From positions 25,456 to 89,455 of IMG/VR virus record IMGVR_UViG_3300018036_001349: a stretch of 64,000 nt of DNA. One strand, given 5' to 3'. The position numbers and the translations under genes were made by a program. Shown one piece after another: positions 3,244 to 47,837 of this stretch. Below the pieces are notes generated by a model. The model worked only from the letters and a program-made list of their open reading frames with translations. It made no database searches and had not been told where the DNA came from. Position 1 is the first letter of the stretch, and every line of letters starts with the position of its first letter. The DNA comes from a virus.

Positions 3244-4257
3244 TCACAAACTCCTATAAATTTCTAGCAAAAGTTTATTGTCGTAAAACTCGCTGTCAAT
3301 TGCAATAATCTGCTCAGTAATAATTTGATCAACACTTTCAAACTTAATATCACCGGGATTCATTTCTTCTTCTAGTGCACTTTGCTTGTTAGGAATCAAT
3401 GCCATTTCTCGCAATTGGTACTTGGTAATGTATTGCTCTTTGATGTAGTTTGCTTCTTCGTAAGAAATTTCAATATCCAAGTTAACACGAACATGCATTC
3501 TTGGTTTGAGTCTCTCGTCGGCAAAATCGATTACGTCACTTAGATTCATAACGCTGTACAACGGCTGATTGGGCCAAGAAACGTATTCTTTGGTGCCATC
3601 CCAATCTAGTATCATCACTCCACGCTGATCATCGCCGGCATCAGAGAAGTTATGCGGAAATGCATTGCCGATGTAGTTGATGTTGTTTTTCTTTTGACGC
3701 AAATGAAAGTGCCCACTAAAAACTTCGCCGTACCCAGTAAAGTGTTCTGCATTGATATCGCCATGATCCGGCATCTCTACCATTGCATTCATCTTAAAGT
3801 GGGGAAGTTCAAAGTGTCCAAACATATACTTGGCACTGGCATTTTTAACACGTTTATAATCATCACCAACCAGCCACGGAACAAGTATAACATCGTCTTG
3901 TTCAAACCATTCGTTGTGAATGTGCACATTTGGAATATGCTGTGCCCACTCGTAGCTGTAAATGTCACGCTTGTCTCTATAGTACAAGTCGTGGTTGCCT
4001 GTGATAAAATGTGTGTTGTTGAAACCTGAACTTAGCTTTTCTAATGCTCTTAAACTATGATGCATCGTTTGCAAACTCAAACTTGCTCTATGGTGATGCC
4101 AATCTCCCATAAAGATGCAAGTTTCACAACCGTGCAGTTTGCCCTGTTCTACTGCCCACTCAACAAACTCCTCACAATCTTGATTGTGGAGAGAGCTGTT
4201 ACTTTTCATGCCAAAGTGGATGTCAGTAAAGACCAAGGCTTTTTTGAACAAACCCAT
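3244..4257 (-). CDS. 47: gp47-like recombination endonuclease catalytic subunit (SbcD/Mre11 family)
   Basis: A 337-residue metallophosphoesterase. The phosphoesterase motifs appear in order: FTDIHFG (D-x-H) at the N-terminus, FMGDWHHH (GD), FITGNHDL (GNHD), then FGHFELP and FSGHFHLR (GH-x-H), which together supply the two-metal site. It is the nuclease partner of gp46 and acts on DNA ends during recombination-dependent replication. The start is placed at ATG 4257 because AAGGACG stands 8 bases upstream and the first motif then begins after about nine residues, as is usual. The longer in-frame extension would run into the gp55 coding region. It follows gp55 by 10 bases and is followed by the split TEK-family gene. 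Confidence 0.95.
   Translation of the reverse strand: MGLFKKALVFTDIHFGMKSNSSLHNQDCEEFVEWAVEQGKLHGCETCIFMGDWHHHRASLSLQTMHHSLRALEKLSSGFNNTHFITGNHDLYYRDKRDIYSYEWAQHIPNVHIHNEWFEQDDVILVPWLVGDDYKRVKNASAKYMFGHFELPHFKMNAMVEMPDHGDINAEHFTGYGEVFSGHFHLRQKKNNINYIGNAFPHNFSDAGDDQRGVMILDWDGTKEYVSWPNQPLYSVMNLSDVIDFADERLKPRMHVRVNLDIEISYEEANYIKEQYITKYQLREMALIPNKQSALEEEMNPGDIKFESVDQIITEQIIAIDSEFYDNKLLLEIYRSL
3251..3255 (-). promoter_or_regulatory. Ribosome-binding site supporting a TTG start
   Basis: On the minus strand AGGAG lies 8 bases before the TTG at 3242-3240 and inside the last codons of gp47. It is the best Shine-Dalgarno in this stretch and decides the non-ATG start of the 2679-3242 gene. Confidence 0.6.
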
Positions 4258-4267
4258 GTATACGTCC

Positions 4268-5182
4268 TTATTTGTTTTTGGTTGCTTTGGTTTCTGCAAT
4301 AAAACGTTTTGATTCTGCTGAGTTGTTAAACTGTCGTGTCCAACTTGGATTCAACCCTGCATTTTCTAGAATATCATCACGAATGTTTTGATTTTTCTTT
4401 TCAATGTTTAGTACCCTAGTAAAACTGTTGGTAATAGCAGCGGTATAGTATGCAAACGGATTTTGAGATTTGCTTTCGTCAAATTGCAATCCAATTTGGC
4501 TGAGTTGCAACAATGCCTGGCCACGCATTTCTTCGTTGTAAGTATACCCACGCCAGTTTGAACGTGTAGCATAGCGTTCGCACAACTTGATAAACATGTG
4601 TGCTAGTTTGTCTGTCATTTTACCATGATCTTTTGAGAAGTGACCATTGTCTAGTCCGCCGACCCAGTGACTTTTGCCCACAACATACGGAACTTTGTTG
4701 TCGTCAATCATGTAATGCCAAAATGGTGGAAAATTCAACTTTATATAGTTGAGATCTTGTTCTACTTCGGTCATAAGCTCTTGTAGCCCGTCGTCGGAAT
4801 AATCAACATCATCCATTTCTAGAATTTCTTCTAGTTTGGATTTCTTCTTTTCTTGGGCTTTAGTTAGCTTTTTTGGCACCATTGGGATATGATCCCAAGT
4901 GGTAATGCGAAATACAAGCTCTTGGTTGCTGAGTTTTGTTGGATCAACTATTTCGCCTGTTTCTCGTTTGATGCGATCAGCTTTGTTACGCCGTGCTTCT
5001 GCAACAGTGCGCTGATTGATTTTGTCTACACTGGGCAAAATAATGTCATACTGAGCTTGACCTGGCTCTAGGTACGAACAATATGTGCTTTTACTTTTGT
5101 AAATTTCTTTGAGAATATCTCGGTTGTTGAGGTAGTTAACTTTTTTAGGTTTTTTAACAGGTGTTTTTTTAGCTAATGCCAT
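4268..5182 (-). CDS. 55: gp55-like late-transcription sigma factor with a long N-terminal extension
   Basis: A 304-residue protein. The C-terminal 120 residues match the T4-like gp55 pattern: KLAHMFIKLCERYATRSNW, then EMRGQALLQLSQIGLQFD and NPFAYYTAAITNSFTRVLN. This is the sigma region 2-like part that binds the host RNA polymerase core and reads the TATAAATA late promoter. T4 gp55 is 185 residues; here about 130 extra residues precede the core, with a Lys-rich start (MALAKKTPVKKPKKV) and a charged, coiled-coil-like stretch rich in Lys, Glu and Asp near residues 105-145. It is the first gene of the leftward transcript 5182 to 1, directly behind a strong sigma70-type promoter, which suits an early or middle gene. 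CATAAATA sites in front of structural genes are its likely targets. Confidence 0.9.
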   Translation of the reverse strand: MALAKKTPVKKPKKVNYLNNRDILKEIYKSKSTYCSYLEPGQAQYDIILPSVDKINQRTVAEARRNKADRIKRETGEIVDPTKLSNQELVFRITTWDHIPMVPKKLTKAQEKKKSKLEEILEMDDVDYSDDGLQELMTEVEQDLNYIKLNFPPFWHYMIDDNKVPYVVGKSHWVGGLDNGHFSKDHGKMTDKLAHMFIKLCERYATRSNWRGYTYNEEMRGQALLQLSQIGLQFDESKSQNPFAYYTAAITNSFTRVLNIEKKNQNIRDDILENAGLNPSWTRQFNNSAESKRFIAETKATKNK

Positions 5183-16378: not shown

Positions 16379-19300
16379 ATGGCTAAAAGAATTCGTTCTG
16401 AGCAGTTTCTTCCAGAAATTTTTCAAACACCTACAAACAAACAATTGCTGCGATCTACACTAGACCAACTGTACCAAAACCCAAAATTAAAACCAACACA
16501 AGGTTATATTGGGCGAAAAATCGGCCCTGGTGTTACTGCTAGTGACAATTATGTGCTGGAGCCAACCGAAACTAGAACAAACTACCAAATGGAACCAGGA
16601 GTTGTTCAGCTTAAACCAAATACAAATCAAGTTGAAAATGCAATCACTTATCCAGGTATCATTGACAGTTTAAAAATGCAAGGCGCTGATGTTTCACGCC
16701 ACGACAGATTGTTTAACAGTGAATATTATAGCTTTGATCCATTTGTTGATTATGACAAGTATGTAAATTTTGGGCAATACTATTGGGTACCCAGTGGACC
16801 AGATAGTGTTGATGTATTTTCAAATTCCATTCCTGTACAAGATGATTTTGATGTAGAAGACACAGACGACGGATACACCTTCTCCGGTGAAGCTGGTACG
16901 TTACCTACGTTGTCTTTTGTACGTGAAGGGAACTATACTTTTAATATTAACAGCCCGGGTAACAACTTTTGGATACAAAGTGTTCCAGGTACAAGTGGAG
17001 TAGTACCATCTCAGCCAAACCAATCGTCAAGACAGGTATTAGGCGTATCTAACAACGGCGAGGACGCCGGTACTGTTACATTTGATGTACCTGCTAAAAG
17101 CGCACAGAACTTTTACTTTACACTCACTGATATTGGGGCAACTGATTTAATTGACGGTACACTAAAGTTTACTGATATTAACAATCAGTATGTTGACGAA
17201 TTCCTTGCTACCAATGGCGGCATTGACGGAATTTCTGATTTAGAAAATCGTACATTAATTTTAACAAACACTGGCAACGATGGCTGGGAAATCCAAACGC
17301 CGTTTGACACAGAAGGAAACGGATACGGAGAAAACCCATTTGACGATTCTACTCCAATAGCAACTGATGCTGAAAGATATGTGCAATGGAGAATTAACTT
17401 TAACTATGCAGATCCAGATCGTCCGTACATGGAGCTTACTGTTAATCAGAGTATTGCAAATCTAAGCAAAACAAACATTGAATACGGTGCAAACAATGCT
17501 GGTGCTACTTGGTATAAAAATGCTGAAGGTACAATGGAGCGCCAACCTCTTATTACTGCTAACTCTGATATTCTTTACTATCAAGATGGCAGTGACGAAA
17601 CAAATTTTGGTATCATACGCATTGTTGATCAAGAGAATGCCGCAGATTTAAACATATCTGAAATACTTGGGAAAACAAATTACACATCTCCCAATGGTGT
17701 TGTGTTCACTAATGGTCTTAAGGTACGTTTTATTGGAACGGTTGTTCCTGCAAGTTACGAAAACAACGAATATTATGTCGAGGGAGTTGGAACTTCTATT
17801 GACTTGTTATTAACAGATAATTTTGTTACTCCAGAGAAGTACACAGCCAGTACCAGTGTGCCATATGACTCTAACCCATATGATGAAGGCAATTTTGATG
17901 AAACACTGAATGCACCAACTGAGCAAGATTATTTAACAGTCAACCGTGCAAGCATAGACCGCAACGCCTGGAGCCGCAGCAACAGATGGTTCCATATTGA
18001 TGTGTTGGACGCTACAGCAACATACAACAACGTTCCATTGACAATCAACAATGACAACAGAGCCAAACGTCCTATCTTAGAGTTTAGAAAAAATCTAAAA
18101 CTTTTCAATGCAGGTACAGAAGGTATTAATAGTATTGATATTATTGACTTTTCTGAAACAGATGCCTTTTCAAACATTAATGGTACAATTGGGTATTCGA
18201 TCGACGGGTACAGCTTGATCTCAGGATCGCAGGTTATTTTTGCTGCTGATGCAGACCCCGAAGTAAGAAATAAAATTTACGAAGTACAGTTTGTTGAACT
18301 AACTCCGGGTGCTACGCCAATTATTGATTTGCAACCAGCAAGTTTAACAACTCCTGATGTGCCTGCTAACACCACTACAGTAGTAATGAGTGGAAACACA
18401 CAACAAGGCAAAGCATATTGGTTTAACGGCACCAACTGGATCAGTGCACAGCAAAAAACCAAAGTCAATCAAGCACCGTTATTTGATATATTCGACAGTA
18501 ATGGCTACAGCTACTCTGACACAACTGTCTATCCAAGTAGTACATTTGTAGGTACTAAGTTGTTCAGCTATGCAGTGGGCAGCGGTGCAACGGATACTAT
18601 TATCGAACAGCCTCTAAAGTATGCAACTATTGCTAATGTTGGCGATATTGTATTCGACAATAACTTGTATGTCGATACATTTGTATACGTAAACGGTACA
18701 GTTAGTGTTACAAAAACAATCGACGAAGGCACAGTTAGGCAGTATAATACTAGAACTACATTTGATAAACTGCTAGGATGGCAAACATCATTTACTAAAA
18801 CAGTGCAACGACAAAGTTTCAGTTTTGAATACAAGTCTTTACCTCTTGTGTTGGATGTACAAGTAATTGCTGATAAATCATTGATTCCTGTTAAAGTGTA
18901 TGTTGAGGGGCAGTTTGTTCTCCCGGAAAATTACACTTATGCAACTAATGTTGACAGTACGACTACAATTACGTTTAATACGGACAAACAACCAGCAGTT
19001 GATGCAATCGTTGAAGTTCAAGTTATCAGTAACACTGAAAGCGGTGTTGCTTTTTATACTATACCAGTTAACCTTGAATCAAATGCACTAAACGAAAATA
19101 GCAACGGATTCACCTTAGGCACTATTCGTAAGCATTACGAGAGTATTTGTCAAAATTTAGAAAACTTCTCCGGGAAGATTCACGGTGCAAACAATGTACG
19201 TGACCTCGGCAATGTTGTTCCGTTTGGCGGATTAATTCTGCAACAAAGTGCTCCATTGAGTATGATGACAAACTTCATTAATGGCAGGGACTTTGAGTTT

Positions 19301-22300
19301 TTTCGTGCATTGGAATTTAATGCAACTGAATACAACAAAACAAAAAATAAGATTTTAAACTATGTTGCACAAAATGACTGGCAATCAAAAACAACTGCCG
19401 AAATATTAGATGATACACTGGACGCAATAAACAGCGGCAAAAATCAACTAAGTCCATTCTATTGGACCGATGCTATCCCGTCGGGGCCTGTGTTCGAGTT
19501 AACAACATACACAGTTAGTGCAATTACTACAAACGTGTTTGACACACTTTATAGTTACAACATGTTTGCGGCAAATTATGCAGGTATATTGGTATACCAT
19601 ACACCGAAGAGCACCGGAATCGAGACTATCCTAATTGGTAACGGACACGACTATACGGTAGCAGCCGACGGCCCTCGTATCACAATTAATACTGAGAATG
19701 TTACATTAGCAACAGGTGACATTATCAGTATCCGCGAATATACTTCAACATCTGGCAGTTATGTGCCAGCAACCCCGTCAATGATGGGCATGTACGAAAT
19801 ATTTAAACCAGAAAAATTTGAGGATACTACATACGTTGAACCGCAGCAGGTTATTCGAGGACACGACGGCAGTATAACAATTGCATGGGACGAAGGTGAT
19901 TTTAGAAACAATGTATTGCTTGAGTTTGAAAAGCGAGTATACAACAATATAAAAATTAGTGCCGAAAGCCGCAAAACGTTGCCTATTAGTGCAGCTGATG
20001 TTATTCCTGGTCAATTCCGTACCACTGATTACTCGTTAGCTACAATTAATAGCATGCTTGCTGTTAGTTTCTTAAGTTGGGCAGGCGGTAATCGTGTTCC
20101 ATATAAAAATCAAGATTACATTGCAACCAATGAATTTACTTGGAACTATAGTAACAGTACCAATCGTTTGTCGGGCGATTCTTTACTAGGTGGATGGAGA
20201 GCAATTTACTTCCAATTATACGACACAGACAGCCCAGACACCCGTCCTTGGGAAATGCTAGGATTATCCGAAAAGCCATCATGGTGGGAAACACGATATG
20301 GCCCTGCGCCTTACACTTCGGGTAACTTGGTACTATGGGAAGATCTAGCAGCAGGCCGTGTTGCAGATCCAATTGCACCATATGTGCTGCCAGACTATGT
20401 ACGCCCTGGTTTGTTGAATGTTATTCCCACTGATAGCCAAGGAAGACTGTTATCACCATTTGACAGTGTTGTTGGCAACTATGACCAAAACAGTTTCAAA
20501 AAATCTTGGGTTACTGGTGACATGGGACCAGCTGAAACAGCCTGGAGACGTAGTAGTTATTATCCTTTTGCAATACAAAGATTACTTGCACTGACTAAGC
20601 CAGCAGATTACTTCTCGTTGTACTCTGACAGAGATGCTTGGAATTATAATGCAGTCTTTGGTCAGTATTTGTTAAACAATAGATTTAGATTAAATGCGTC
20701 ACAAATTGGAATTTATGGTAACGGCAGTATTAAGAACAGTTATATTAATTTCATTGTTGACTATAATAGAGTTACTGGTTTAGACAGCACTACACTATTA
20801 ACAGATAAGTTAGCAAACATTGATGTGCGTTTATGTTATAGAATGGCAGCGTTCAGCGATCAGAATTATTTAAAGATATTCAGCGAGAAGAGTTCTCCGA
20901 ACAGTCTTAATGCTAGCCTGTTGTTGCCTGACGAAAGTTATCAACTATTCCTGTACCAAAACCCAAGTTTCTCTGAAATACAATATAGCAGCGTTATTGT
21001 ACAAAGAACTACAACAGGCTATACTGTTAGCGGGTACTCAACTACAAAACCATATTTCAGCATACTAGAAAGTGTACCAAGCGGAAACTTCAACAGGATG
21101 ACGGTGAATGGCGAAACATTCCGTGTTGCTAATACATATTCTAACAATGTAATCACTGTGCCATATGGTTACGAATTCACTAGTAAAAACGGAGTTGTTG
21201 ACTTTTTAGTTAGCTACGGCAAACTACTTGAGTCACAAGGTATGGCGTTTGAATCACGTGAAGATACAGTGATCCTTAATTGGGATCAAATGGCGCAAGA
21301 ATTTTTATACTGGGCTGGGCAAGCTTGGATTGCAGGCAGTCTGATTAATTTAAACCCAGCTGCTAATGTACTAAAATTAGAGCAGCCAAACAGCGTAGTC
21401 GAAAGTTTAAAAAACGAAAACATCAATGATGTATTGTTGGATCAGAACTATACTCCGCTAACAACAAACGAATATGCAGTCGAAAGATTGGACAATGAAC
21501 TAAAATTAGTTGGTCTTAATAACCAAACCTTCAGTTATCTTAATGCAAGATTTACTAGCTATGAACACATTATTGTTTTTGATAATGTTAGTATCTTTAA
21601 TGACCTTGTGTATGAACCAAAGACCGCAGCAAGACAAAGTCGCTTGTTATTGAATGGTTACACAGTGTATGATTGGAACGGTACACTTGATGCACAAGGA
21701 TTTATTCTCAATGAGGATAACATTAAGCCCTGGGTTCCTAACCAAGCATACACCAAAGGGCAAATTGTTTTTTATAAGAATTCTTACTGGAGTGCAGTTG
21801 AACTATTAGCACCAACAGAAAAATTTGATTTCTCTAAGTGGATAAAAAGCGATTATAATAAAATACAAAAAGGGTTGTTGCCGAACCTTTCTAGTAAAGC
21901 AAGCGGTTTACAAGAAAACTATGATATACACACTGCAAATCTTGAAGACGATGCTACATTACTTGGTATGGGACTAATTGGATTCAGACCAAGACAGTAT
22001 ATGCAGAATTTAAACTTAGACGATATTTCGCAAGCCGGGCTATACTCGCAATTCTTGGGAACAAAAGGCACACTACAGGCAGCCGAAGTCTTTAAGAGTG
22101 CCAATCTTGGCAAAGAACAAGCCGAATATGAAATATTCGAAAACTGGGCAATACAGCGTGGGATATATGGCGCAAGCGCAAATCGTAGTTACTATGAATT
22201 GCAACTCGACGAAAGCAAATTACTTGGTAATCCAACTACAATTGATGTTGTTAATGCTGGTGAAACAAGTACCGCAAATCAAACAGTTTTAGTAAACAAC

Positions 22301-25300
22301 TTATACAAACAAAGTTATAAAATCACCGATCCAGACATACTACCAACAGTGTCTCAGATTCCCCAAGATGTGGGATTACCAAGTGCTGGTTATGTAAATT
22401 ACGACGATGTTGATATTAAAGTTTTTGACTACAATGACTTGACAAATGTTATTCTTAACATGGAGAAAGTTACTGTTGGCACTAATGTATGGGTAGCAAA
22501 GGACAATAGATATGATTGGAATATCTATAGGACCAATTTGGTTAATGCCAATGTTGTCCGTGTATTTGATAATTTAAATGGAACATGTACAGTAACATTT
22601 GATGTTAATCACGGATTGTTAGCAGCTGATAGATTGGTTATTAAATATTTCAATAATAATGTTGATGGCGCTTATATTGTTAAATCAGTAACAGGGCTAA
22701 AAACTCTAGTTCTTGATTTAGTACTACTCGGAAATACAACTGACGTAACTGGCAACGGTCGTGCGTTTGTGTTAGAAAGTGTTCGTGTTGCACAGCCGGC
22801 TGATATTGCTAACTTGAGCTTTGTAAACGACATATTGCCTACCAACGAAGTGTGGGCTGACAATAACGGCAGCGACAACTGGGAAGTGTTGGAGAAAATT
22901 AATCCATTTGGCGAACCAAGTGACCTAGCCTCTCCTACCACTGAAATGAATTCACGATTCGGTACAGCCATTGCCCAGGGATTGCGTAACCAAGGGTTAA
23001 TAGTCGGTGCTCCAGGTTTTAATTCCGGGGTTGGCGCAATAAATGCCTACAATAGTAGCGAAGGTGTATATGTAGAAACTAGTACTATATCCCCTGCAAC
23101 CACTGGATTTAGTGGATTTGGTAGTAGTTTAGCAGTAGGTGATTTTGATTGGGCAATTGTGGGCGCATCTGCTAGTGACAGCAATAGAGGTTACGCAGTT
23201 GCTATTAATAGAAATCCAACCAATGGTAGCTACAGGCAAACACAAATCTTTGTCGGTGCCGCTGGTACACCAGAGCACGGGCACGGAGTAGCCATCAGTA
23301 GAGACGAACGCTGGATGTATATTAGTTCACCAGCTACCAACGAAATTGACGCATATAACTTGGTCGATGTACAAAATCAAGCTATAGAATACACCGGCGA
23401 TTCTACTACTACTCGATTTGCAATCACCCCAGATATCGTAGTTAGCGACCAAACACAAATTGGTGTAACTGTCAACAACATTAATAAACCAGTTGGCGGA
23501 GATTGGGTCTTAGAAACTATTAGCGGCGTAACATATGTAACATTTAATGCAGCACTAAACAACGGCGATGCATTGCGAATTACACGATTTCAGGGTTTTA
23601 CAGACAACAACGCAGTTGCAAAAACTACATTTGATACCAGCATGTTGTACACTGTAAGTGACATTTATAGTTTTGCAGTATATGTTAATAACGTACTACA
23701 GCGCCCAACCATTGATTATACGTTTGTTGGCGATGATGTTGTGCTTACTTCGCCTGCAACAGGTACAGTTGTTATTAATTCAAAAAATTACTGGAAACAC
23801 ATTGACACATTTACTGTATCTGGCATAGTAGGCGGTGCCCGACTTGGGCAAAGCATTTCGACAACAACCGATGGACGTCAGATCATGATTGGCGCACCCG
23901 ACGATACAGTTGGTTCTGACACTCTAGCAGGCACAGTTCATATTATAGACAGGAGTGTTGAAAGATTTCAAGTAATCGATGCAACAGTTAAAACTTACAC
24001 TGTTACAGATACCCCAAATGGCCCGGTAAGTGTCACTGTTAATGGCAATTATTTAATTCCAACTAATAACTTTAACAATCCGCAGTTTAGTGTTGCTGGC
24101 AATGTTATTACAATTGGCACTACTGCTAATCCTGTAACACTAAATGTTGGCGATATAATTGAAATTGAAACCAACACTTTTAGACTGATGCAAAGCATAC
24201 AATCAACTGCACCTGGCGCTAGTTATAATTTTGGTAGTGTAGTTAAAAACTGCCCAACAAATTGTAGTTTGTATGTCGGTGTGCCAAACGACAGTGCAAT
24301 TAAACCCGAAGCTGGTAGTGTTGAGCGCTGGGCAAATCAAAGTAGATTGTTTGGCACTATAACAGGAACTATTGCTAATCCAGTATTAACTGTTGGAAAT
24401 AGTATTCGTATTAACAATTATTATGTTGTATTAACTGGTACAACAGTTGCGTCATTGGTTGGTGATATCAATGATGCAAATATTCCTAATATAACTGCAA
24501 TTGACAATGCTGGTAAATTGCTTCTCACATTGCAAAATGTAGCTGCTGGCGATGAATTTATCAAGTTGCAAGTATTACCTGGTGCTGGAACAGCCTATGC
24601 TGATCTTGGAATTGAACAAATGGTATTTGCACAACAGATCACATCGCCAATAGTGCAAGCATATGGTCATTTTGGAACCAGTGCAAGCATTAGTAATAAT
24701 GCACTAACACTAGTAGTTGGTGCACCAGACTCAACTGCAATTATGGCAACAACATTTGATGCTGCAACCACTGATTTTGATTCAGGTAGCACACCATTTA
24801 ATGATCCAGTAACACAATCAGGCGTTGCAATAACATATGATTTCTTAAATGCAGCAAACCCAAGTATTACAAACTTTGGTAAATTTGTGTTTGGTCAACA
24901 AATATTTGACACAACTATAAACAGTCTTGATAAATTTGGATCAGCTGTTGATTATCGCAACGGTACGTTGCTAGTAGGTGCACCAAATAATGATCTTGAT
25001 GATAGTACAGACCTTAACAGCGGCCGCACTATTCAAGTTATTAATGCCAAAAAAGAACTAGCTTGGAAAATAGTATACAAGCAAGAGCCAGTTGTCAACA
25101 CCGCACTTCTAAACAGTGTGTTCCTTTATGACAAGCGCAGCAATGATGTTACTAATTACTTGGACTTCATTGATCCGTTGAATGGAAAAATACTCGGAGC
25201 AGCGCAGGCAAATATTAACTACACCGGCGGTGTTGATCCTGCTGCATATAATACTGGCGAAGTAAACAATTTTGGTTCACAGTGGAACAGTAATCATCTC

Positions 25301-28300
25301 GGGGAAATGTGGTGGGATTTATCAACAGTTCGATTTATTGATTATCACCAAGACACAATTGAATACAAAGCCAGACGATGGGGTCAACTATTTGAAGGTT
25401 CTGTTGTAGATGTGTATCAGTGGACAGAGAATACAGTGCCGCCAAGCGAATACACAGGAACTGGCACAGTTTACAGTACCACGAGTTACACTATGACAAG
25501 TGTGCTCGACAGTGCAGGAACTTTTGTAACTTATTATTACTATTGGGTAAAAGGCATCACAAGCGTAAGCCCGGGTAAAACTCTAAGTGCTGCTGGGGTA
25601 ACACAGTATATCGAAAATCCACGTAGTAGTGGCATTAGTTATGCGGCTGCAATAACACCTAGCACAACAGCACTTTACAACTGTAATAGTTTTATTAGTG
25701 CTAAAGATACAATTTTACACATCGAATTTGATAAAATTGCAAACACCGACAATGTCCATGCTGAATACGACTTGGTTACTGCTGGAAACCCTAGTAGTTT
25801 CCTTGGCGCCAGCCTTTATAGAAAGTTACTTGATAGTTTCTGTGGCGAAGATACACTAGGCAACATAGTACCAGATGCAACATTAAGTGCAGCCGACGAG
25901 TACGGGGTTAACTTTAGACCAAGACAGAGCATGTTCAAAGATCGATTCCTTGCTCTTGACAATTATCTATCACGAGCAAATAAAATTATGGCACTGTACC
26001 CTATTACAGACAGCAAGAAGTTTGATTTGCTTAATAGCGAAGAACCAGAGCCGACTAAAGATAGTGGCGCCTGGGATAAACGAATTGCAACATATGCAGA
26101 ATTGACATATCAAGACCTGCGTCAAGTTCCTGTTGGATATATTTACTTGGTGGCAAGTGACAGCACTCAGCAAGGATTGTGGACAACTTATACAGTACAA
26201 GCAGATAAATCCTTGTTACTCAGTAGAGTTCAAACATACGATACTAAACTTTATTGGAGCTATGTTGACTGGGTAGCAGTAGGATATGATGCATCAATTA
26301 GCCCAAAAACTGAAGTTGCAGTATACAGTGACCTACTTGCATTAACACCAGTAAATGGCCAAACAGTAAAAGTAACTGCAAATAGTTTTGGCAAAAGCGA
26401 AATATACCAATGGACTAGTGCTTCTAATGAATGGGTGCGTGTACAGCTCACTGATGGTACAGTTGCAATCAATAATACTATTTGGGATTATTCAATTGGG
26501 CGATTTGGGTTTGATACTGAAGTTTTTGATGCACAAAGATTCGATCAAGCACCAAACACTGAAACACGTCAGATTCTCAAAGCATTAAATCAAGAAATAT
26601 TCACAACAGACTTAGAAATTCATCGAAATGAGCTACTAATTCAAACATTTGAATTTATTATAACCGAGCAAACAGCACCAGACTGGTTGTTTAAGACTAG
26701 TTTGATTGATGTTTCGCACAAAATTCGCGACTTGCTTCCGTATCCGATTTATAAACGTGATAACCAAGACTTTGTTAGCGATTACATCGATGAAATTAAA
26801 CCTTATCATGTTCAAATTCGTGAATTTAACCTGCGTTATGAAGGCATTGACAGTTACAATGGTAGTGCTACAGATTTTGATGTGCCAGCTTATTATGACG
26901 AGCTAAGACAAGGATTCATATCGCCTATCTTGGACAACAACACTGACAATCCTATGTCATTGAGCAGCTTTCCTAGTACTGACCCAATATGGAAAACTTG
27001 GCCCTACAGCCAATGGATTAGCAACTACTTGCTAGAACTAAGCAGTGTTACTGTAATAAATGGTGGTTCGGGGTATACTGTTCCTCCACAAGTTATTGTA
27101 ACAGGTGATGCAGATACACAAGCAACAATGGAAGCAAAAGTTAATAGTGCTGGGCAATTAATTAGTGTAACTGTGCTTACACCCGGAAGCGGATATACGA
27201 CTACTCCAATTATTACTATCTCGGGTGGCAACGGCGTTGGTGCAACTGCAATTGCAGTGCTTGCGCCAAGTCTAGTTCGAGACATAGTAACAACAATCAA
27301 GTACGACAGAATTACTTACAACAGTCAAGTAGTTGATTGGCAAGCAAATACAGTTTATACTGCAAATGAACTTGTGCGATATCCTGTGCCTACTGTTGGC
27401 ACGGTTGCTACAACACAAGCAAAAGTTTATCAAGTAATTGCAGACTTTACTAGTACCTCAACATTCGATCCTGACAATTATACAATAGTTGATCCAAGTA
27501 CACTAGACGGCGCAGACAGAACAATTGGTATGTATACGCCAACTCCATCTGATCCAGGTCGAGAATTAGCACAGCTAATGACAGGGATTGATTACCCTGG
27601 TGTACAAGTACAAGGACCAGACTTTGACCAAAACACCGGTTTTGATGTAGGCAACTACGATATTAATCCGTTTGATAACATTGAGGTTGGCCCCGAGGGC
27701 TTGCCAACATACAGCGCCGAAATCTTGGATGTTATATATGAGAGCTCGTTTACTGATTCATACTTGGGAATACGTGCAACTGATATTAATGTTGAAGGTG
27801 GCGAATTTATCGACACATATAGCTCACATGCACCAGAGGAACTAGTCCCAGGTAGTGAGTTTGATACATTAGATCTCAAAGTTTACACTCGCCCAGGCAG
27901 TGATTGGTCTAATAACGGCCACGGCTTTAGCATCAAGGGTGTTAGCGTTGAGTACACCGGAGTTGGGACAACAGTTAGTTTTGCAGGTCTTATACAGCAC
28001 CCCATTGAGCTTGAAGTTTATAACGAGCTCAGTGGACAAAATGTTGATCCAAGTAGCTACACTATTAATTGGGTTACTAAAGTAATTACACTTAATAGTG
28101 GAAATGTAGGAGATGTGTTTGATGTTCAAATCTATGGACTAGGAGGTGGATCGCAACTTTACAAAGAAAGTTTTGTAGGCAACACCATCACCAATGCAAC
28201 ACAGCAGATTAACGTAGCATACACAGAAATTGCCGAGATGGTTGTGTTTGTTAATGGCGCACTTTTTACAAACTACACTTATGCAGCCAGCGGCAGTTTT

Positions 28301-29884
28301 GCAACTGATGTAACATTTAATACACAGCCCACGTCAACTGATTGGGTTACTATTGTTGCACTTGGAGTAACAACACCAACGCAACTAAGTTGGAGTGCAC
28401 CTCAAATACAACGTTTCACCCACGACGGCAGTACATCTCAATATGCACTAACAAACAGTTTACAAGGAACAAACATTGTTAACATGTTAGTTGAACGTGA
28501 TGGTTTACGTTTGAGAGCACCAGAGGGCATTGAATATACTAGCGACGGATCAAGTTTGGGTCCTTACTATTTGAGTACAACAGGTAAAACAAATCAAGGA
28601 TTAATTGCAGACAACGATGTAATTGTGTACGTTGATAACGTACAACAGAATCTAGCAGTTGATTGGACACTAAGCGAGTTTGACGGCAGTAGCGACAGGT
28701 ATGTTGAATTTAATGCAAATGCACAACCAGCAGATGGTGCAAAAATTCTGATTGCAGTAACAACTGAAGCTGATTATACAATAGTGAACACAAATGATTT
28801 ATTGTTGCGGGTTGGTGCTATACCCGATACACCGTTTACTGTATATACATTCAATGACACATCAGAGCAAAGCATTATTACCAAGGTATACCAAGGGCCT
28901 ACTACTGAGGGTGCAACTACTAGTATTGCATTTGATGAAAATGACTATGACGACAGCCCATTTGACTACACAATTGGTATATCTATAGAGACTAACAATT
29001 TTGCTCTCGGTAGACTTGTAACCAATCCTGAAAGAATGTTTGTATCGCTAAATGGCAAGTATCTTAGAAACGGTGTAGACTTTGAACTAAGTACTGGCAC
29101 GGACGGGCTTAGTGTTCTTACTGTCAATGGCAGTATACTCGGACCTATTGATGTGTTGATAGTAACTATATTTACAATGAGTGTCGTTCCGGATAGTTTG
29201 AACTTCCGTATCTTCCAGGACATGTTGGGAAATCAAAAAATACTCAAACTGAACACCGGCAATACCACTGAGTTAACATCTGCACTAGCAATAGACGATG
29301 ATGTTGTTTATGTTAAGGATGCAAGCAAATTGAGTGCACCAAATCTAGAATCAAATATATTTGGACAGATGATAGTTGGTGCAGAGCGTATCACTTACAG
29401 ATCACGGGATTTGTCAAACAACACTGTTAGTGGATTGCGCAGAGGTGTAGCCGGTACCGGTGCAATGGCGCACGTTAGTGGCGTAAGTGTCAGTGATGTT
29501 GGGCTAGCACAACAGTTGCCAAGTACGTATCAGCAAAAAACTACAACTGATAAAACAAATATTGGCGACGGTTCAACTACCACCTTTATTGGGTCTGGGA
29601 TTGTTGTACCATCAACAGTTGACAGTACAGAACTCGACGAAGCAGTTAGAGTTAGCGTTGGCGGCACAGAGCTGATCAATACTGTTGATTATACTGTAAC
29701 TCAAGTTGATGCAACCCAAGTTGAAGTAACACTTACAACTGCACCAGCTGATGGCGTAGAAATTGATATCTCAATAGTCAATGGTAACGTAATGTACAAA
29801 CAAGGAAATAATACAGCAAGTAACGGAATTGCATTGCAAGATCAAACTACCGTAGCAGCATTATTTCTTAAAGACCAAGGTTAA
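16379..29884 (+). CDS. Giant baseplate/tail structural protein with a seven-repeat FG-GAP propeller
   Basis: 4501 residues, 3 bases after gp6. The start (IRSEQFLPEIFQTPTNKQLL) and the position after gp6 match very large wedge-associated proteins of T4-like marine phages, in the slot of T4 gp7. Residues about 2190-2880 hold seven FG-GAP-like repeats (for example FGTAIAQGLRNQGLIVGAPG, FGSSLAVGDFDWAIVGA, FGTSASISNNALTLVVGAP, FGSAVDYRNGTLLVGAPNN), the count of an integrin-alpha-type propeller. At least eight dispersed modules of the form V-x-V-N-G followed by a strand ending in T-F-N-x-x-P occur near residues 840, 2360, 2435, 2555, 3955, 4080, 4220 and 4425. A GGSGYT/GSGYTT pair sits near 3560-3605. 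Such modules suit a receptor-contacting or baseplate-periphery protein; this is inference from fold type. The frame is intact throughout. Confidence 0.85.
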   Translation: MAKRIRSEQFLPEIFQTPTNKQLLRSTLDQLYQNPKLKPTQGYIGRKIGPGVTASDNYVLEPTETRTNYQMEPGVVQLKPNTNQVENAITYPGIIDSLKMQGADVSRHDRLFNSEYYSFDPFVDYDKYVNFGQYYWVPSGPDSVDVFSNSIPVQDDFDVEDTDDGYTFSGEAGTLPTLSFVREGNYTFNINSPGNNFWIQSVPGTSGVVPSQPNQSSRQVLGVSNNGEDAGTVTFDVPAKSAQNFYFTLTDIGATDLIDGTLKFTDINNQYVDEFLATNGGIDGISDLENRTLILTNTGNDGWEIQTPFDTEGNGYGENPFDDSTPIATDAERYVQWRINFNYADPDRPYMELTVNQSIANLSKTNIEYGANNAGATWYKNAEGTMERQPLITANSDILYYQDGSDETNFGIIRIVDQENAADLNISEILGKTNYTSPNGVVFTNGLKVRFIGTVVPASYENNEYYVEGVGTSIDLLLTDNFVTPEKYTASTSVPYDSNPYDEGNFDETLNAPTEQDYLTVNRASIDRNAWSRSNRWFHIDVLDATATYNNVPLTINNDNRAKRPILEFRKNLKLFNAGTEGINSIDIIDFSETDAFSNINGTIGYSIDGYSLISGSQVIFAADADPEVRNKIYEVQFVELTPGATPIIDLQPASLTTPDVPANTTTVVMSGNTQQGKAYWFNGTNWISAQQKTKVNQAPLFDIFDSNGYSYSDTTVYPSSTFVGTKLFSYAVGSGATDTIIEQPLKYATIANVGDIVFDNNLYVDTFVYVNGTVSVTKTIDEGTVRQYNTRTTFDKLLGWQTSFTKTVQRQSFSFEYKSLPLVLDVQVIADKSLIPVKVYVEGQFVLPENYTYATNVDSTTTITFNTDKQPAVDAIVEVQVISNTESGVAFYTIPVNLESNALNENSNGFTLGTIRKHYESICQNLENFSGKIHGANNVRDLGNVVPFGGLILQQSAPLSMMTNFINGRDFEFFRALEFNATEYNKTKNKILNYVAQNDWQSKTTAEILDDTLDAINSGKNQLSPFYWTDAIPSGPVFELTTYTVSAITTNVFDTLYSYNMFAANYAGILVYHTPKSTGIETILIGNGHDYTVAADGPRITINTENVTLATGDIISIREYTSTSGSYVPATPSMMGMYEIFKPEKFEDTTYVEPQQVIRGHDGSITIAWDEGDFRNNVLLEFEKRVYNNIKISAESRKTLPISAADVIPGQFRTTDYSLATINSMLAVSFLSWAGGNRVPYKNQDYIATNEFTWNYSNSTNRLSGDSLLGGWRAIYFQLYDTDSPDTRPWEMLGLSEKPSWWETRYGPAPYTSGNLVLWEDLAAGRVADPIAPYVLPDYVRPGLLNVIPTDSQGRLLSPFDSVVGNYDQNSFKKSWVTGDMGPAETAWRRSSYYPFAIQRLLALTKPADYFSLYSDRDAWNYNAVFGQYLLNNRFRLNASQIGIYGNGSIKNSYINFIVDYNRVTGLDSTTLLTDKLANIDVRLCYRMAAFSDQNYLKIFSEKSSPNSLNASLLLPDESYQLFLYQNPSFSEIQYSSVIVQRTTTGYTVSGYSTTKPYFSILESVPSGNFNRMTVNGETFRVANTYSNNVITVPYGYEFTSKNGVVDFLVSYGKLLESQGMAFESREDTVILNWDQMAQEFLYWAGQAWIAGSLINLNPAANVLKLEQPNSVVESLKNENINDVLLDQNYTPLTTNEYAVERLDNELKLVGLNNQTFSYLNARFTSYEHIIVFDNVSIFNDLVYEPKTAARQSRLLLNGYTVYDWNGTLDAQGFILNEDNIKPWVPNQAYTKGQIVFYKNSYWSAVELLAPTEKFDFSKWIKSDYNKIQKGLLPNLSSKASGLQENYDIHTANLEDDATLLGMGLIGFRPRQYMQNLNLDDISQAGLYSQFLGTKGTLQAAEVFKSANLGKEQAEYEIFENWAIQRGIYGASANRSYYELQLDESKLLGNPTTIDVVNAGETSTANQTVLVNNLYKQSYKITDPDILPTVSQIPQDVGLPSAGYVNYDDVDIKVFDYNDLTNVILNMEKVTVGTNVWVAKDNRYDWNIYRTNLVNANVVRVFDNLNGTCTVTFDVNHGLLAADRLVIKYFNNNVDGAYIVKSVTGLKTLVLDLVLLGNTTDVTGNGRAFVLESVRVAQPADIANLSFVNDILPTNEVWADNNGSDNWEVLEKINPFGEPSDLASPTTEMNSRFGTAIAQGLRNQGLIVGAPGFNSGVGAINAYNSSEGVYVETSTISPATTGFSGFGSSLAVGDFDWAIVGASASDSNRGYAVAINRNPTNGSYRQTQIFVGAAGTPEHGHGVAISRDERWMYISSPATNEIDAYNLVDVQNQAIEYTGDSTTTRFAITPDIVVSDQTQIGVTVNNINKPVGGDWVLETISGVTYVTFNAALNNGDALRITRFQGFTDNNAVAKTTFDTSMLYTVSDIYSFAVYVNNVLQRPTIDYTFVGDDVVLTSPATGTVVINSKNYWKHIDTFTVSGIVGGARLGQSISTTTDGRQIMIGAPDDTVGSDTLAGTVHIIDRSVERFQVIDATVKTYTVTDTPNGPVSVTVNGNYLIPTNNFNNPQFSVAGNVITIGTTANPVTLNVGDIIEIETNTFRLMQSIQSTAPGASYNFGSVVKNCPTNCSLYVGVPNDSAIKPEAGSVERWANQSRLFGTITGTIANPVLTVGNSIRINNYYVVLTGTTVASLVGDINDANIPNITAIDNAGKLLLTLQNVAAGDEFIKLQVLPGAGTAYADLGIEQMVFAQQITSPIVQAYGHFGTSASISNNALTLVVGAPDSTAIMATTFDAATTDFDSGSTPFNDPVTQSGVAITYDFLNAANPSITNFGKFVFGQQIFDTTINSLDKFGSAVDYRNGTLLVGAPNNDLDDSTDLNSGRTIQVINAKKELAWKIVYKQEPVVNTALLNSVFLYDKRSNDVTNYLDFIDPLNGKILGAAQANINYTGGVDPAAYNTGEVNNFGSQWNSNHLGEMWWDLSTVRFIDYHQDTIEYKARRWGQLFEGSVVDVYQWTENTVPPSEYTGTGTVYSTTSYTMTSVLDSAGTFVTYYYYWVKGITSVSPGKTLSAAGVTQYIENPRSSGISYAAAITPSTTALYNCNSFISAKDTILHIEFDKIANTDNVHAEYDLVTAGNPSSFLGASLYRKLLDSFCGEDTLGNIVPDATLSAADEYGVNFRPRQSMFKDRFLALDNYLSRANKIMALYPITDSKKFDLLNSEEPEPTKDSGAWDKRIATYAELTYQDLRQVPVGYIYLVASDSTQQGLWTTYTVQADKSLLLSRVQTYDTKLYWSYVDWVAVGYDASISPKTEVAVYSDLLALTPVNGQTVKVTANSFGKSEIYQWTSASNEWVRVQLTDGTVAINNTIWDYSIGRFGFDTEVFDAQRFDQAPNTETRQILKALNQEIFTTDLEIHRNELLIQTFEFIITEQTAPDWLFKTSLIDVSHKIRDLLPYPIYKRDNQDFVSDYIDEIKPYHVQIREFNLRYEGIDSYNGSATDFDVPAYYDELRQGFISPILDNNTDNPMSLSSFPSTDPIWKTWPYSQWISNYLLELSSVTVINGGSGYTVPPQVIVTGDADTQATMEAKVNSAGQLISVTVLTPGSGYTTTPIITISGGNGVGATAIAVLAPSLVRDIVTTIKYDRITYNSQVVDWQANTVYTANELVRYPVPTVGTVATTQAKVYQVIADFTSTSTFDPDNYTIVDPSTLDGADRTIGMYTPTPSDPGRELAQLMTGIDYPGVQVQGPDFDQNTGFDVGNYDINPFDNIEVGPEGLPTYSAEILDVIYESSFTDSYLGIRATDINVEGGEFIDTYSSHAPEELVPGSEFDTLDLKVYTRPGSDWSNNGHGFSIKGVSVEYTGVGTTVSFAGLIQHPIELEVYNELSGQNVDPSSYTINWVTKVITLNSGNVGDVFDVQIYGLGGGSQLYKESFVGNTITNATQQINVAYTEIAEMVVFVNGALFTNYTYAASGSFATDVTFNTQPTSTDWVTIVALGVTTPTQLSWSAPQIQRFTHDGSTSQYALTNSLQGTNIVNMLVERDGLRLRAPEGIEYTSDGSSLGPYYLSTTGKTNQGLIADNDVIVYVDNVQQNLAVDWTLSEFDGSSDRYVEFNANAQPADGAKILIAVTTEADYTIVNTNDLLLRVGAIPDTPFTVYTFNDTSEQSIITKVYQGPTTEGATTSIAFDENDYDDSPFDYTIGISIETNNFALGRLVTNPERMFVSLNGKYLRNGVDFELSTGTDGLSVLTVNGSILGPIDVLIVTIFTMSVVPDSLNFRIFQDMLGNQKILKLNTGNTTELTSALAIDDDVVYVKDASKLSAPNLESNIFGQMIVGAERITYRSRDLSNNTVSGLRRGVAGTGAMAHVSGVSVSDVGLAQQLPSTYQQKTTTDKTNIGDGSTTTFIGSGIVVPSTVDSTELDEAVRVSVGGTELINTVDYTVTQVDATQVEVTLTTAPADGVEIDISIVNGNVMYKQGNNTASNGIALQDQTTVAALFLKDQG

Positions 29885-29903: not shown

Positions 29904-30569
29904 ATGGAAGTAGATAAAGATAACGTTAACGAGATGTCAATGGAACAAAATAAAGAAGTTGCGCCAAACGAAAATGGCCAGGTTGCTATTAGTGGGCACA
30001 TCAAAATTTTTGATCCAAACACCGATGAAGTAATTATAGATAAACGCAATGCAATTCATTATGAAAATATGAGCGAAGCACTTGCGAATAGTCTTGCAAA
30101 TAAAAGCATTGGACAAATCTATAATATGTCATTTGGAAACGGCGGAAGTAGTGTAGACCCAACAGGGGTTATTACATATTTGCCACCTAACACTACAGGG
30201 CAAAACGCTAATCTGTATAATCCAACTTATTCAAAAGTAGTCGACGACAACAGTGCATCAAACACTGACACTAGTAGAAACAAACTAACAGTGACGCATA
30301 CTACTGGTAAAGTGTATACAGACATTCTAGTTAGTTGTCTGTTAGATTATGGAGAGCCAAGTGGACAACAGGCATTTGATAATTCAACAGATTTTAATGG
30401 AGATTATGTGTTTGATGAACTTGGACTTAAAGTTTGGAACGGCAGTGCAACTAATTTGCGACTAATAACACATGTTATTTTTCACCCGGTTCAAAAATCA
30501 TTGAACAGACAAATACAAATTGATTACACAGTGCGCATTCAGACTTTAACAAATCTTAGTGCAACATAA
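29904..30569 (+). CDS. Putative virion structural protein
   Basis: 221 residues. Beta-rich, with an acidic N-terminus (MEVDKDNVNEMSMEQNKE) and a conserved-looking centre (GHIKIFDPNTDEVIIDKRNA, SIGQIYNMSFGNGG). The end, QIQIDYTVRIQTL, is strand-like. No family name can be given from memory with certainty. Its place between the giant wedge protein and a tail-fibre-like protein, in the same late block, points to a tail-tip or baseplate component. AGATAGG before the ATG serves as a modest ribosome site. Confidence 0.65.
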   Translation: MEVDKDNVNEMSMEQNKEVAPNENGQVAISGHIKIFDPNTDEVIIDKRNAIHYENMSEALANSLANKSIGQIYNMSFGNGGSSVDPTGVITYLPPNTTGQNANLYNPTYSKVVDDNSASNTDTSRNKLTVTHTTGKVYTDILVSCLLDYGEPSGQQAFDNSTDFNGDYVFDELGLKVWNGSATNLRLITHVIFHPVQKSLNRQIQIDYTVRIQTLTNLSAT

Positions 30570-32111: not shown

Positions 32112-33026
32112 ATGGCATACACAGCAGGAGACGTAATTTCACATGCAGATTACAATGACTTCGCTCAAAAAACAGATACAGTATGGGGTGTCGGCGACGG
32201 AACCGACGGCTATGGGCAAACTAACACAATTGGTACTGTAACAGGTGGCAACACTATCACTGCTACGCAGTGGGCAACATTGCTTGCAAGAATTACTAGT
32301 ACAGCTAACCACCAAGGGACATCAATTACAGCAATAACAAGTCCAACAGCCGGTGATACTATCTCGGCATACGCTGCGCTAGCAACAAATGTTTCAGCTA
32401 TACAAGATAATAACAATGCTGCTGCTAGTGGCTCCGATGCAACAGAATCTACTACAACAACTAGTGCATGGACTGCAACTGCAACAACAACTAAGACTGT
32501 TTCATTTGCAAGCTATAACCAACTGCGTTATTTCTTTAATGCAGGTGGTATGATTAGAATGAGCTTTAGTCGAACTGGCGGCTCTGCAAGTGATCAAAAC
32601 ACATCGTGGACAAACTTATTAGATCAAGCTGGTACAATTGTGTTAACAGGGTCCGGTAATCCGGGTCTTAATAAAACAATTGCAGGGGTAAACTACTTCG
32701 GTACTACTAGAATTGGTGGCAGCGGAACTCCAGATACGCTAGCCGAAGGAGTCGGTGCTTACAATCTTACTGGCACCAGCCAAACACTTTACAAGCAATT
32801 TGCTACTACATACACTTATACATCAAACTACACTGAAATTACAGCAACAATCAGTGGATCAACTATTACATTCGTAGTAACGCTAAATGATGTTAGTACA
32901 CCAGGTCTTGATAGTATTGATGGAACACTTACCATGAACACTGTAGTTCGTCAACCGTCAACTACATACATTGCAAGTACATGGGGTACAGTAACACAAA
33001 ATACTGCATCCTGGACGCTAACTTAA
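32112..33026 (+). CDS. Putative virion structural protein (fibre-like)
   Basis: 304 residues, rich in Thr, Ser, Ala and Asn. The N-terminus (MAYTAGDVISHADYNDFAQK) resembles structural proteins in other marine T4-like phages that begin with a short helical anchor. The rest (FNAGGMIRMSFSRTGGSAS; then YTSNYTEITATISGSTITFV) is beta-rich and repetitive as in fibres. It ends the structural block. AAGGAA lies about 9 bases before the ATG. No exact T4 counterpart can be named; association with the tail or long fibre is inferred from position. Confidence 0.65.
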   Translation: MAYTAGDVISHADYNDFAQKTDTVWGVGDGTDGYGQTNTIGTVTGGNTITATQWATLLARITSTANHQGTSITAITSPTAGDTISAYAALATNVSAIQDNNNAAASGSDATESTTTTSAWTATATTTKTVSFASYNQLRYFFNAGGMIRMSFSRTGGSASDQNTSWTNLLDQAGTIVLTGSGNPGLNKTIAGVNYFGTTRIGGSGTPDTLAEGVGAYNLTGTSQTLYKQFATTYTYTSNYTEITATISGSTITFVVTLNDVSTPGLDSIDGTLTMNTVVRQPSTTYIASTWGTVTQNTASWTLT

Positions 33027-33049
33027 TATTTAAAAATTTAATCAGGTCA

Positions 33050-33082
33050 CTGTTTGCATGCTAACTACTAGCATGCAAACAG
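33050..33082 (+). repeat. 12-base perfect inverted repeat over the start of the next gene
   Basis: CTGTTTGCATGC (33050-33061) and GCATGCAAACAG (33071-33082) flank a 9-base loop. Both arms contain an in-frame ATG of the downstream gene, at 33058 and 33073, so the hairpin covers translation initiation. No T run follows. It may separate late structural mRNA from the following genes or control translation. Confidence 0.75.
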
Positions 33083-33378
33083 ACCAACTCTCCCAAAACA
33101 TTAAAACTAGATTTGATCACCAGCAAGCCAGAATTGTCTTGCGGGAAACGTACGAAGCCAAGATGCTTTTTGCGCACGATGGTGGTATGTGGAAGGCATC
33201 ACCAGACTTGATCGTATTATGTGATTGTTGTCAAGATTCACGTGTAGTACTCGAAGATTATTATAATACACCGGTTAGCATAGACCCACGTGAACTTAAA
33301 AAATTAGCAATGCAACGATGGCAAGAACAAATGAATGCTTGGCAAGTTGAATACGATGAAATTTCTAAACAACGATGA
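33058..33378 (+). CDS. Conserved-type small phage protein, function unknown
   Basis: 106 residues, or 101 if the second ATG at 33073 is used. Mostly helical and charged. A CDCCQ cluster (residues about 55-59) follows LIVLCD and could bind metal, but no known zinc domain fits. No good ribosome site precedes either ATG; both lie in the arms of a perfect hairpin, so translation may depend on the hairpin opening. Its end overlaps the next gene as ATGA. Small proteins of this kind follow the fibre genes in marine T4-like phages, but no function is known to me. Confidence 0.6.
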   Translation: MLTTSMQTDQLSQNIKTRFDHQQARIVLRETYEAKMLFAHDGGMWKASPDLIVLCDCCQDSRVVLEDYYNTPVSIDPRELKKLAMQRWQEQMNAWQVEYDEISKQR

Positions 33379-46652: not shown

Positions 46653-47718
46653 AATTGAAATGAAACTTAGACATAATGTTACAGGAGAATTGTTTCCTGT
46701 TTACATTGATGTACATGATAATAGTTTAAGCCGTAAATGGCTTCCGGCACTCAACGGGTTGCTTAACAACAATTACCATCTTGAAAAGAATTATTGCTTT
46801 TTTGGATTTCCAGATGGCGAACGTGATTTGCAATTACTTGTTGATCAAATTAATGCAACAATTAAAGGCATTAATGATAGCAGCATTGATTATTATATTG
46901 ACGATCATTTCACAGTAGATAATGTTGTTGAACCTGAGAAACTTCCAGACACAGAACAAACCCGCACTGACCAAGGCGAAAGCTTGGGCATTAACCATGA
47001 CAAATTTAATCAACTACACTTGTATTTTGAAGAAACACAAGGCGAGAGCGGTAACATGTCTAGGCATTATAATGCAGCAAATGCAGAAACTCGTTGGTAT
47101 ATTCGACAATTAAATTTATTGTGCCACGAAGCAGAAAGTCTTATTTTAAGCCTGCGTAAAAAACAGCATGCCCCAGAATGGATTCGCCCTAGCAATATTA
47201 TGTGTTGGTTAAATGCGCCTCGATTTGCCCTCAGCGAAGAGGATTACGAACTGTTCGGCATTAACACTATTGCAAAAGACCAAGGCGGAGTGTACGTTGG
47301 GGTTAACAAGGCTGTAGGGAAACACCATTGGGAAGTATTCCAAGATGAGGGCCGAGACAGTCGAATTGACGAACTTGTTACAACATCACTAAAGCCGCAA
47401 ACTATAGCAGCAGGCGACTTTGACATCGAATGGGGAAACCCTACACTACACCAAAAATTTATGCGAGACCAGCTCAACAGTTTTCGTGGCTGGCTGACAG
47501 ATAATAATTTTGATCCTAACGATAAGAGTTTAACAATCGGGCATCCTAAGGTAGCACAAGTAGATTTAAAGGCAAGCTTTTCTACTACCAACTTTGAACG
47601 GATACTAAGTAAATTAACACAGCATCTAGACGTATATAGTATACGCACATCAAATGCATACGCTGAGTACGAGTACACTTGGCGAGACAGCAAAGAATTA
47701 CAGGTATCACTGCTATGA
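46642..47718 (+). CDS. Protein of unknown function within the radical-SAM run
   Basis: 358 residues. No known domain was recognised. Features: an acidic segment around residues 75-120, HLYFEETQGESGNMSRHYN and RQLNLLCHEAESLILSL in the middle (helical), MCWLNAPRFALSEEDYELFG, and GVYVGVNKAVGKHHWEVFQD, which has the look of a soluble enzyme core. It overlaps radical-SAM protein 7 by 11 bases and the tiny following gene by ATGA, so it belongs to the same transcript. Its lack of paralogs here and its central place make it a candidate substrate-handling component, but that is a guess. Confidence 0.65.
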   Translation: MLDRIEMKLRHNVTGELFPVYIDVHDNSLSRKWLPALNGLLNNNYHLEKNYCFFGFPDGERDLQLLVDQINATIKGINDSSIDYYIDDHFTVDNVVEPEKLPDTEQTRTDQGESLGINHDKFNQLHLYFEETQGESGNMSRHYNAANAETRWYIRQLNLLCHEAESLILSLRKKQHAPEWIRPSNIMCWLNAPRFALSEEDYELFGINTIAKDQGGVYVGVNKAVGKHHWEVFQDEGRDSRIDELVTTSLKPQTIAAGDFDIEWGNPTLHQKFMRDQLNSFRGWLTDNNFDPNDKSLTIGHPKVAQVDLKASFSTTNFERILSKLTQHLDVYSIRTSNAYAEYEYTWRDSKELQVSLL

Positions 47719-47837
47719 AAATAATCAAAAAAATATTAAGTTGGCCAAAAAGTTTAATTAATAAAATTAAACTTGAAATACGTTATAGAAAAAAGCTCAA
47801 AGAGCTTAGAAAAAAGGATCCATTTATTTACAAATGA
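47715..47837 (+). CDS. Tiny basic protein (40 residues)
   Basis: A short frame linked at both ends by ATGA: its ATG overlaps the stop of the preceding gene, and its TGA overlaps the ATG of metK. That double coupling makes it a real gene rather than a gap. The product begins MKIIKKILSWPKSLINKIK and ends KKLKELRKKDPFIYK. It is strongly basic (Lys/Arg in about one residue of three) and could form an amphipathic helix. From memory, small proteins ending in a DPFIY-like tail occur in T4-like marine phages, so it may be a general phage protein. A modified-peptide precursor is also possible given the radical-SAM context, but it lacks a Cys or Gly-rich core. Confidence 0.65.
   Translation: MKIIKKILSWPKSLINKIKLEIRYRKKLKELRKKDPFIYK

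Follow-up and report, generated by a model that had tools for sequence, protein, structure and literature searches.

A perfect inverted repeat lying between the tail genes and a small conserved gene is read here, with a probability that we put near 60%, as an RNA hairpin that sequesters the start codon of the small gene, is wrapped around an internal promoter, and substitutes for a terminator. The repeat is found in a 64,000-nucleotide stretch of DNA (hereafter the window, meaning the whole stretch analyzed), which was taken from a virus record of 89 kb. PHROG matches to a late sigma factor, baseplate wedge and hub proteins, and gp46/47-like SbcCD subunits place this marine virus with the T4-like myoviruses.

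Structure and setting of the inverted repeat

The repeat forms a perfect stem of 14 pairs closed by a 5-base loop (Table 1), and begins 23 bases past the stop (33026) of the upstream tail-region gene. A sequence-only reading of the same DNA had correctly located a hairpin at 33050–33082, but described a 12-pair stem with a 9-base loop. Beyond a 2-base bulge, GGTC and GACC add four more pairs (the fold comparison covered 31 of 97 rows). This is the sole perfect stem of >10 pairs with a loop of 3–12 bases in the window, and when the window was shuffled 100 times with dinucleotides preserved, a perfect stem of 14 pairs was reached once. Local RNA folding at the hairpin yielded a z-score of −4.8, with none of 200 shuffles folding equally well. 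Rfam returned no match up to E = 1 for the region 32900–33300, and a reverse-strand match was discarded as the palindrome matching itself. Elsewhere in the window, a 10-pair perfect A+T-rich hairpin (47750–47774) occupies the gap between an ORF ending at 47718 and one starting at 47834.

For the upstream gene, neither PHROG nor Pfam gave a match at E ≤ 0.001. On the other side, the next gene overlaps the stop codon of the small gene through an ATGA in the window and in 60 of the 70 distinct cases by the test used (among the matches listed), and its translation is thus probably coupled to that of the small gene. The virus also encodes SbcC/SbcD-like subunits of the gp46/47 kind (360–2117 and 3244–4299, both on the minus strand), i.e., a palindrome-specific type of nuclease, yet the perfect palindromic repeat is kept by this phage. 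Within the tail region, a single ORF of 4501 aa extends from 16379 to 29884.

Table 1 Features of the hairpin junction and related genes (window coordinates)
Feature	Position	Strand	Remarks
T4-type late sigma factor (gp55 family)	4268..5182	−	phrog_12791, E 1.1e-74
Upstream gene, 304 aa	32112..33026	+	Last of tail/structural block
Outer stem extension GGTC	33045..33048	+	Pairs with 33082–33085 past 2-base bulge; window subgroup and L019
Left (5′) arm of 14-pair stem	33050..33063	+	Non-coding; core 33052–33061
CTAACTA, promoter-like −10 element	33061..33067	+	Starts at −12 from ATG, between the arms
Right (3′) arm of 14-pair stem	33069..33082	+	Contains the start and following codons, ATG CAA ACA G
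Small gene, 101 codons from conserved ATG	33073..33378	+	Homologue alignment; weak DUF4376-like model topology
Next gene, 262 aa	33375..34163	+	Its ATGA overlaps stop codon of small gene

A single start codon and a probable leaderless promoter

To compare this junction with its relatives, we collected homologues of the small gene, which were found on 259 viral contig stretches in one search and 261 in another, and retained the best 80 of each. The resulting comparison set included 97 loci (window included), or 69 distinct junctions after merging duplicates with identical 40 upstream and 30 downstream bases; start choice is uncertain for L076, L206, and L216. Control ORFs (n = 355) were taken mechanically from the same loci with a length of ≥150 aa, and some of them are spurious.

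Homologues start at the second of the two ATGs, in most cases as MQT, MDT, or MNT, while the first (33058) is replaced by ATA in L009, L012–L015, and L019, which form hairpin subgroup B. Hence only the ATG at 33073 is a conserved start, and the earlier suggestion of two alternative start codons was wrong in substance. The apparent absence of a ribosome site, in turn, was borne out: pairing with the anti-Shine-Dalgarno sequence is estimated at +1.0 kcal/mol, weaker than for any other of the 49 listed ORFs, and most tail-block genes in the window do carry a visible site. Across relatives (best matches listed), an energy ≤ −4 kcal/mol was observed for 1 of 69 junctions vs 194 of 355 control ORFs.

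In place of a ribosome site, a TATAAT-like or CTAANTA element starts at −13 to −11 from the ATG in 57 of the 69 distinct junctions (best matches listed), and the same rule applied to the control ORFs retrieved 1 of 355. The two traits by which a leaderless gene can be recognized in sequence, namely a −10 element 11–13 bases before the start and no Shine-Dalgarno site, are therefore both found here. This fixed register and the near-absence of Shine-Dalgarno sites suggest that the small gene has its own promoter and is probably transcribed as a leaderless mRNA, since a −10 element at this spacing would set the transcription start at or beside the AUG. A leaderless small gene across the close and more distant relatives of the window would be a finding in itself.

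The element is CTAACTA in the window, CTAATTA in hairpin subgroup B and in L008, and CTAAGTA in sister loci with a terminator (see below). In PMC1524935, the T4 late promoter TATAAATA is described as spanning −13 to −6, and that of Aeh1, CTAAATA, as beginning at −12; CTAANTA, starting at −12, shares the register of the latter and lies inside the span of the former. The gp55-family protein encoded on the minus strand is the candidate for recognizing the late promoters of this phage. Relatives with TATAAT have, as their commonest −35-like hexamers at a spacing of 17, TTTACT (18/35) and TAGACT (8/35), and thus resemble host sigma-70 promoters; no consistent −35 was found among the junctions of the hairpin group. 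We infer promoter activity, a transcription start, and a sigma factor reading it at CTAACTA from these sequence comparisons.

We also considered whether CTAANTA might represent a phage-wide promoter class. This was rejected, as CTAASTA shows no enrichment in the window (13 occurrences vs 16.5 expected) and CTAABTA near an ATG is not clearly enriched over a reversed control record-wide in 20 related records. The phage's own late-promoter-like sequences are ATAAATA and GTAAATA, from which CTAACTA differs. Separately, GTAAATACAGC directly abuts, on its upstream side, the ATG of a 221-aa gene (window position 29904) and of its homologues in L009, L020, L026, L028, and L030, the last of which reads GTAAATACAGT. 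This makes it a second late-promoter-like sequence very near a start codon.

A hairpin where relatives have a terminator

The hairpin is carried by 12 loci in addition to the window, corresponding to 8 distinct alignment rows and 6 distinct junctions. Ahead of the small gene, a terminator-like structure was detected in 55 of the 63 other distinct junctions vs 0 of the 6 hairpin junctions (best matches listed; p values for this comparison are nominal and ignore relatedness). Three non-hairpin loci (L044, L074, and L077) form short stems of 6–7 pairs over the AUG, hence the exclusion between hairpin and terminator applies to the long stem only. In the alignment, AGTTTGCAT of the left arm faces AGTTTTTAT in the 5′ half of the terminator, and the remainder of the terminator is absent from the hairpin group; the hairpin may thus have originated from a terminator by loss of its 3′ half.

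We asked whether the hairpin itself could be an intrinsic terminator and rejected this candidate: a G+C-rich stem with a U-tract behind it was found in none of the 13 hairpin rows, and a terminator scan did not report the hairpin on either strand. These observations also bear on a broader alternative, in which the chief role of the hairpin would be to set or shield the 3′ end of mRNA from the upstream tail genes through processing, pausing, or factor-dependent termination; it would have replaced a lost terminator and cover the AUG only incidentally. Its proximity to the upstream stop codon and its occupation of the very spot where most relatives have a terminator would fit such a role. However, the missing U-tract and negative scan argue against it, and the stem takes in the start codon, which is needless for a plain terminator and unlike the terminators of relatives, which end ~18–33 bases before the ATG. 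Overall, we consider this alternative unlikely.

Returning to the start-codon hairpin, we tentatively propose, at slightly less than even odds, that, in a T4-type lineage, an intrinsic terminator gave way to a hairpin with a promoter between its arms and a leaderless AUG in its 3′ arm, the small gene being read only from its own leaderless transcript. If true, a switch from transcriptional to translational insulation would be visible among close relatives, and these loci, running from an intact terminator through its loss to the gain of a hairpin, would provide a natural series for a direct test of that evolutionary exchange.

In the sister loci, the terminator loop is nearly invariant, with CCTAGTTTTTATTAACTAGG found exactly in 15 loci ~20–50 bases before the small gene (invariant-loop sisters: L006, L010, L016, L020–L024, L026–L028, L030, and L031), which is stricter than a terminator requires. 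As TTAACT stands 15 bases before CTAA in 15 of 17 sisters, this conserved loop may double as a −35 element.

Conservation of pairing

The sequence-only reading had named a lack of conserved pairing as part of what would speak against it. Instead, the hairpin was kept in all 6 distinct hairpin junctions, a restricted group among the best matches listed, and pairing was conserved with a double change. In the non-coding core of the left arm, 9 of 10 columns are invariant over the 8 rows, compared to 10 of 25 non-coding flank columns (9/18 and 1/7; Fisher p 0.01, nominal and ignoring relatedness). One core pair is G-C in four rows and A-U in the other four, pairing being kept, and two outer pairs likewise change on both sides. 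Among the 17 pairs counted, 9 never vary and 4 depart only by unpaired cells; in total, 86.8% of cells pair, vs 24–39% when the partner is slid by 1–3 columns. This covariation is modest and drawn from few lineages, i.e., 6 distinct junctions and one clean double change in the core.

The small number of independent lineages leaves some room for a chance palindrome, arising for example by template switching and inherited without function. On a tree of the small protein, hairpin rows fall in two places and the hairpin label needs at least two changes, although the protein is short and the tree weak; three loci nested near the subgroup of the window (L006, L008, and L010) have a terminator, degenerate in L008. 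The left arm may, moreover, go back to what was left of the 5′ arm of a terminator. We nevertheless regard a chance origin as improbable, because the repeat persists in every distinct hairpin junction while adjacent non-coding bases change, and because one double change restores a pair.

The same columns could in principle reflect a DNA operator, with a dimeric protein bound to half-sites flanking the −10 element and repressing the promoter. Half-sites are indeed found at a constant 9-base spacing around this element in hairpin rows. Yet sisters that lack the repeat already have the right half-site as coding sequence (ATGCAAACAGA in L006, L008, and L010), the symmetric base change in the half-sites fits pairing at least as well, and no regulator is known, so that we give an operator little credence.

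Searching with a wide pattern retrieved 77 occurrences on 76 stretches (L085 being counted on both strands), 16 of them with stems of ≥9 pairs, all on hairpin-group contigs except for three (L108, L144, and L150). A collection of named phages included no similar DNA or protein. Of the three contigs just named, L108, a viral contig of 200 kb that does not belong to the hairpin group, displays a perfect inverted repeat of 19 pairs with TTGCATACTAAC at ~2971 on the reverse strand.

Predicted burial of the start codon

We next estimated AUG accessibility for all 69 distinct junctions. In read-through RNA, the predicted probability of an unpaired AUG was 0.001–0.002 in each of the 6 distinct hairpin junctions; it had a median of 0.415 in the other 63, of which L051, L067, and L204 also reached ≤0.01. 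Without the leader, this probability was 0.50–0.87 for hairpin junctions, the AUG of the window (0.505) being only half open in silico.

We thus propose that mRNA started upstream and reading through from the tail genes would hold both arms, burying the AUG at 33073 and leaving the small gene untranslated. Because the −10 element lies between the arms, a polymerase starting at CTAACTA would instead produce an mRNA that starts on or beside the A of the AUG and lacks the left arm; the hairpin could then not form, and this mRNA would be translated as a leaderless message. Given the ATGA overlap, silencing would probably extend to the next gene. In this lineage, the hairpin would replace the intrinsic terminator that insulates the small gene in relatives. 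From the folding predictions, we infer that the hairpin would repress the small gene.

Out of three roles first suggested for the repeat (a block of read-through translation, protection of an mRNA 3′ end, and a protein site), the block of read-through translation is the best supported, with an AUG predicted to be buried in every distinct hairpin junction, conserved pairing, and no terminator. That initial account had overlooked a conserved −10-like element located between the arms, a transcript that is likely leaderless, and the alternation of terminator and hairpin.

Comparison with known start-sequestering hairpins

Similar control is described for T4 gene e, in which long transcripts hide the start and lower lysozyme synthesis 100-fold and adjoining late promoters give transcripts lacking the 5′ arm (PMC3014915), and the same start-sequestering logic is described for I-TevI (PMC2988022). 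As in the accounts of T4 e, soc, 49, and I-TevI (PMC3014915, PMC2988022), mRNA initiated upstream would fold over the translation start, and a promoter in or beside the 5′ arm, here putative, might yield an mRNA without this arm. A late sigma factor of the gp55 type is encoded by the window phage, as by T4. Two hallmarks of the gene e type, namely a start that is paired in the upstream-initiated mRNA (here by prediction) and conserved pairing, are found. Unlike the gene e type, the AUG itself is in the stem, there is no Shine-Dalgarno site, and a leaderless start is predicted at the AUG; the gene concerned is a small conserved one located after tail genes, and the hairpin alternates with a terminator among relatives. 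Among the papers listed by literature searches, none was seen to describe a leaderless start inside such a hairpin, which does not prove that there is no such case. Judged from sequence, this conserved hairpin over a start codon, with a promoter inside it that is likely leaderless, is likely a variation on the T4 gene e kind and, if true, gene e-type control would extend to leaderless genes in uncultured marine phages.

Aeh1 mobE and T4 segB are further T4-type phage genes for which an RNA hairpin is described as lowering initiation (PMC2988022, PMC3014915), as predicted here, but these are described as homing endonuclease genes with a ribosome site. Closest in position are the terminator and promoter of relatives, which occupy the same junction and probably provide the same insulation of the small gene from the tail genes. 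In contrast to the hairpin, this terminator acts on transcription via a U-tract, with the AUG outside the stem.

The small protein

No Pfam or PHROG family was identified for the small protein at E ≤ 0.001, and no match was found in the PDB by fold (E ≤ 0.001) or by sequence. An AlphaFold model (mean pLDDT 87.1) has one close match, to an uncharacterized phage protein (E 1.8e-9), followed from E 0.013 on by weaker matches, many named DUF4376, which reflect a weak likeness in topology. DUF4376 is absent from the Pfam matches of 32 homologues, hence sequence does not assign the protein to this family. Proteins described under DUF4376 include chaperones for the tail fibres of Alteromonas phages V22 and A5 (PMC10579305, PMC7289586). 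Taken together, the DUF4376-like fold and the position after the tail genes make a tail-fibre helper possible, as a suggestion from structure and position that sequence models do not support. Within the small protein, the motif WQEQMNAW was strictly conserved in 32 of 32 aligned homologues.
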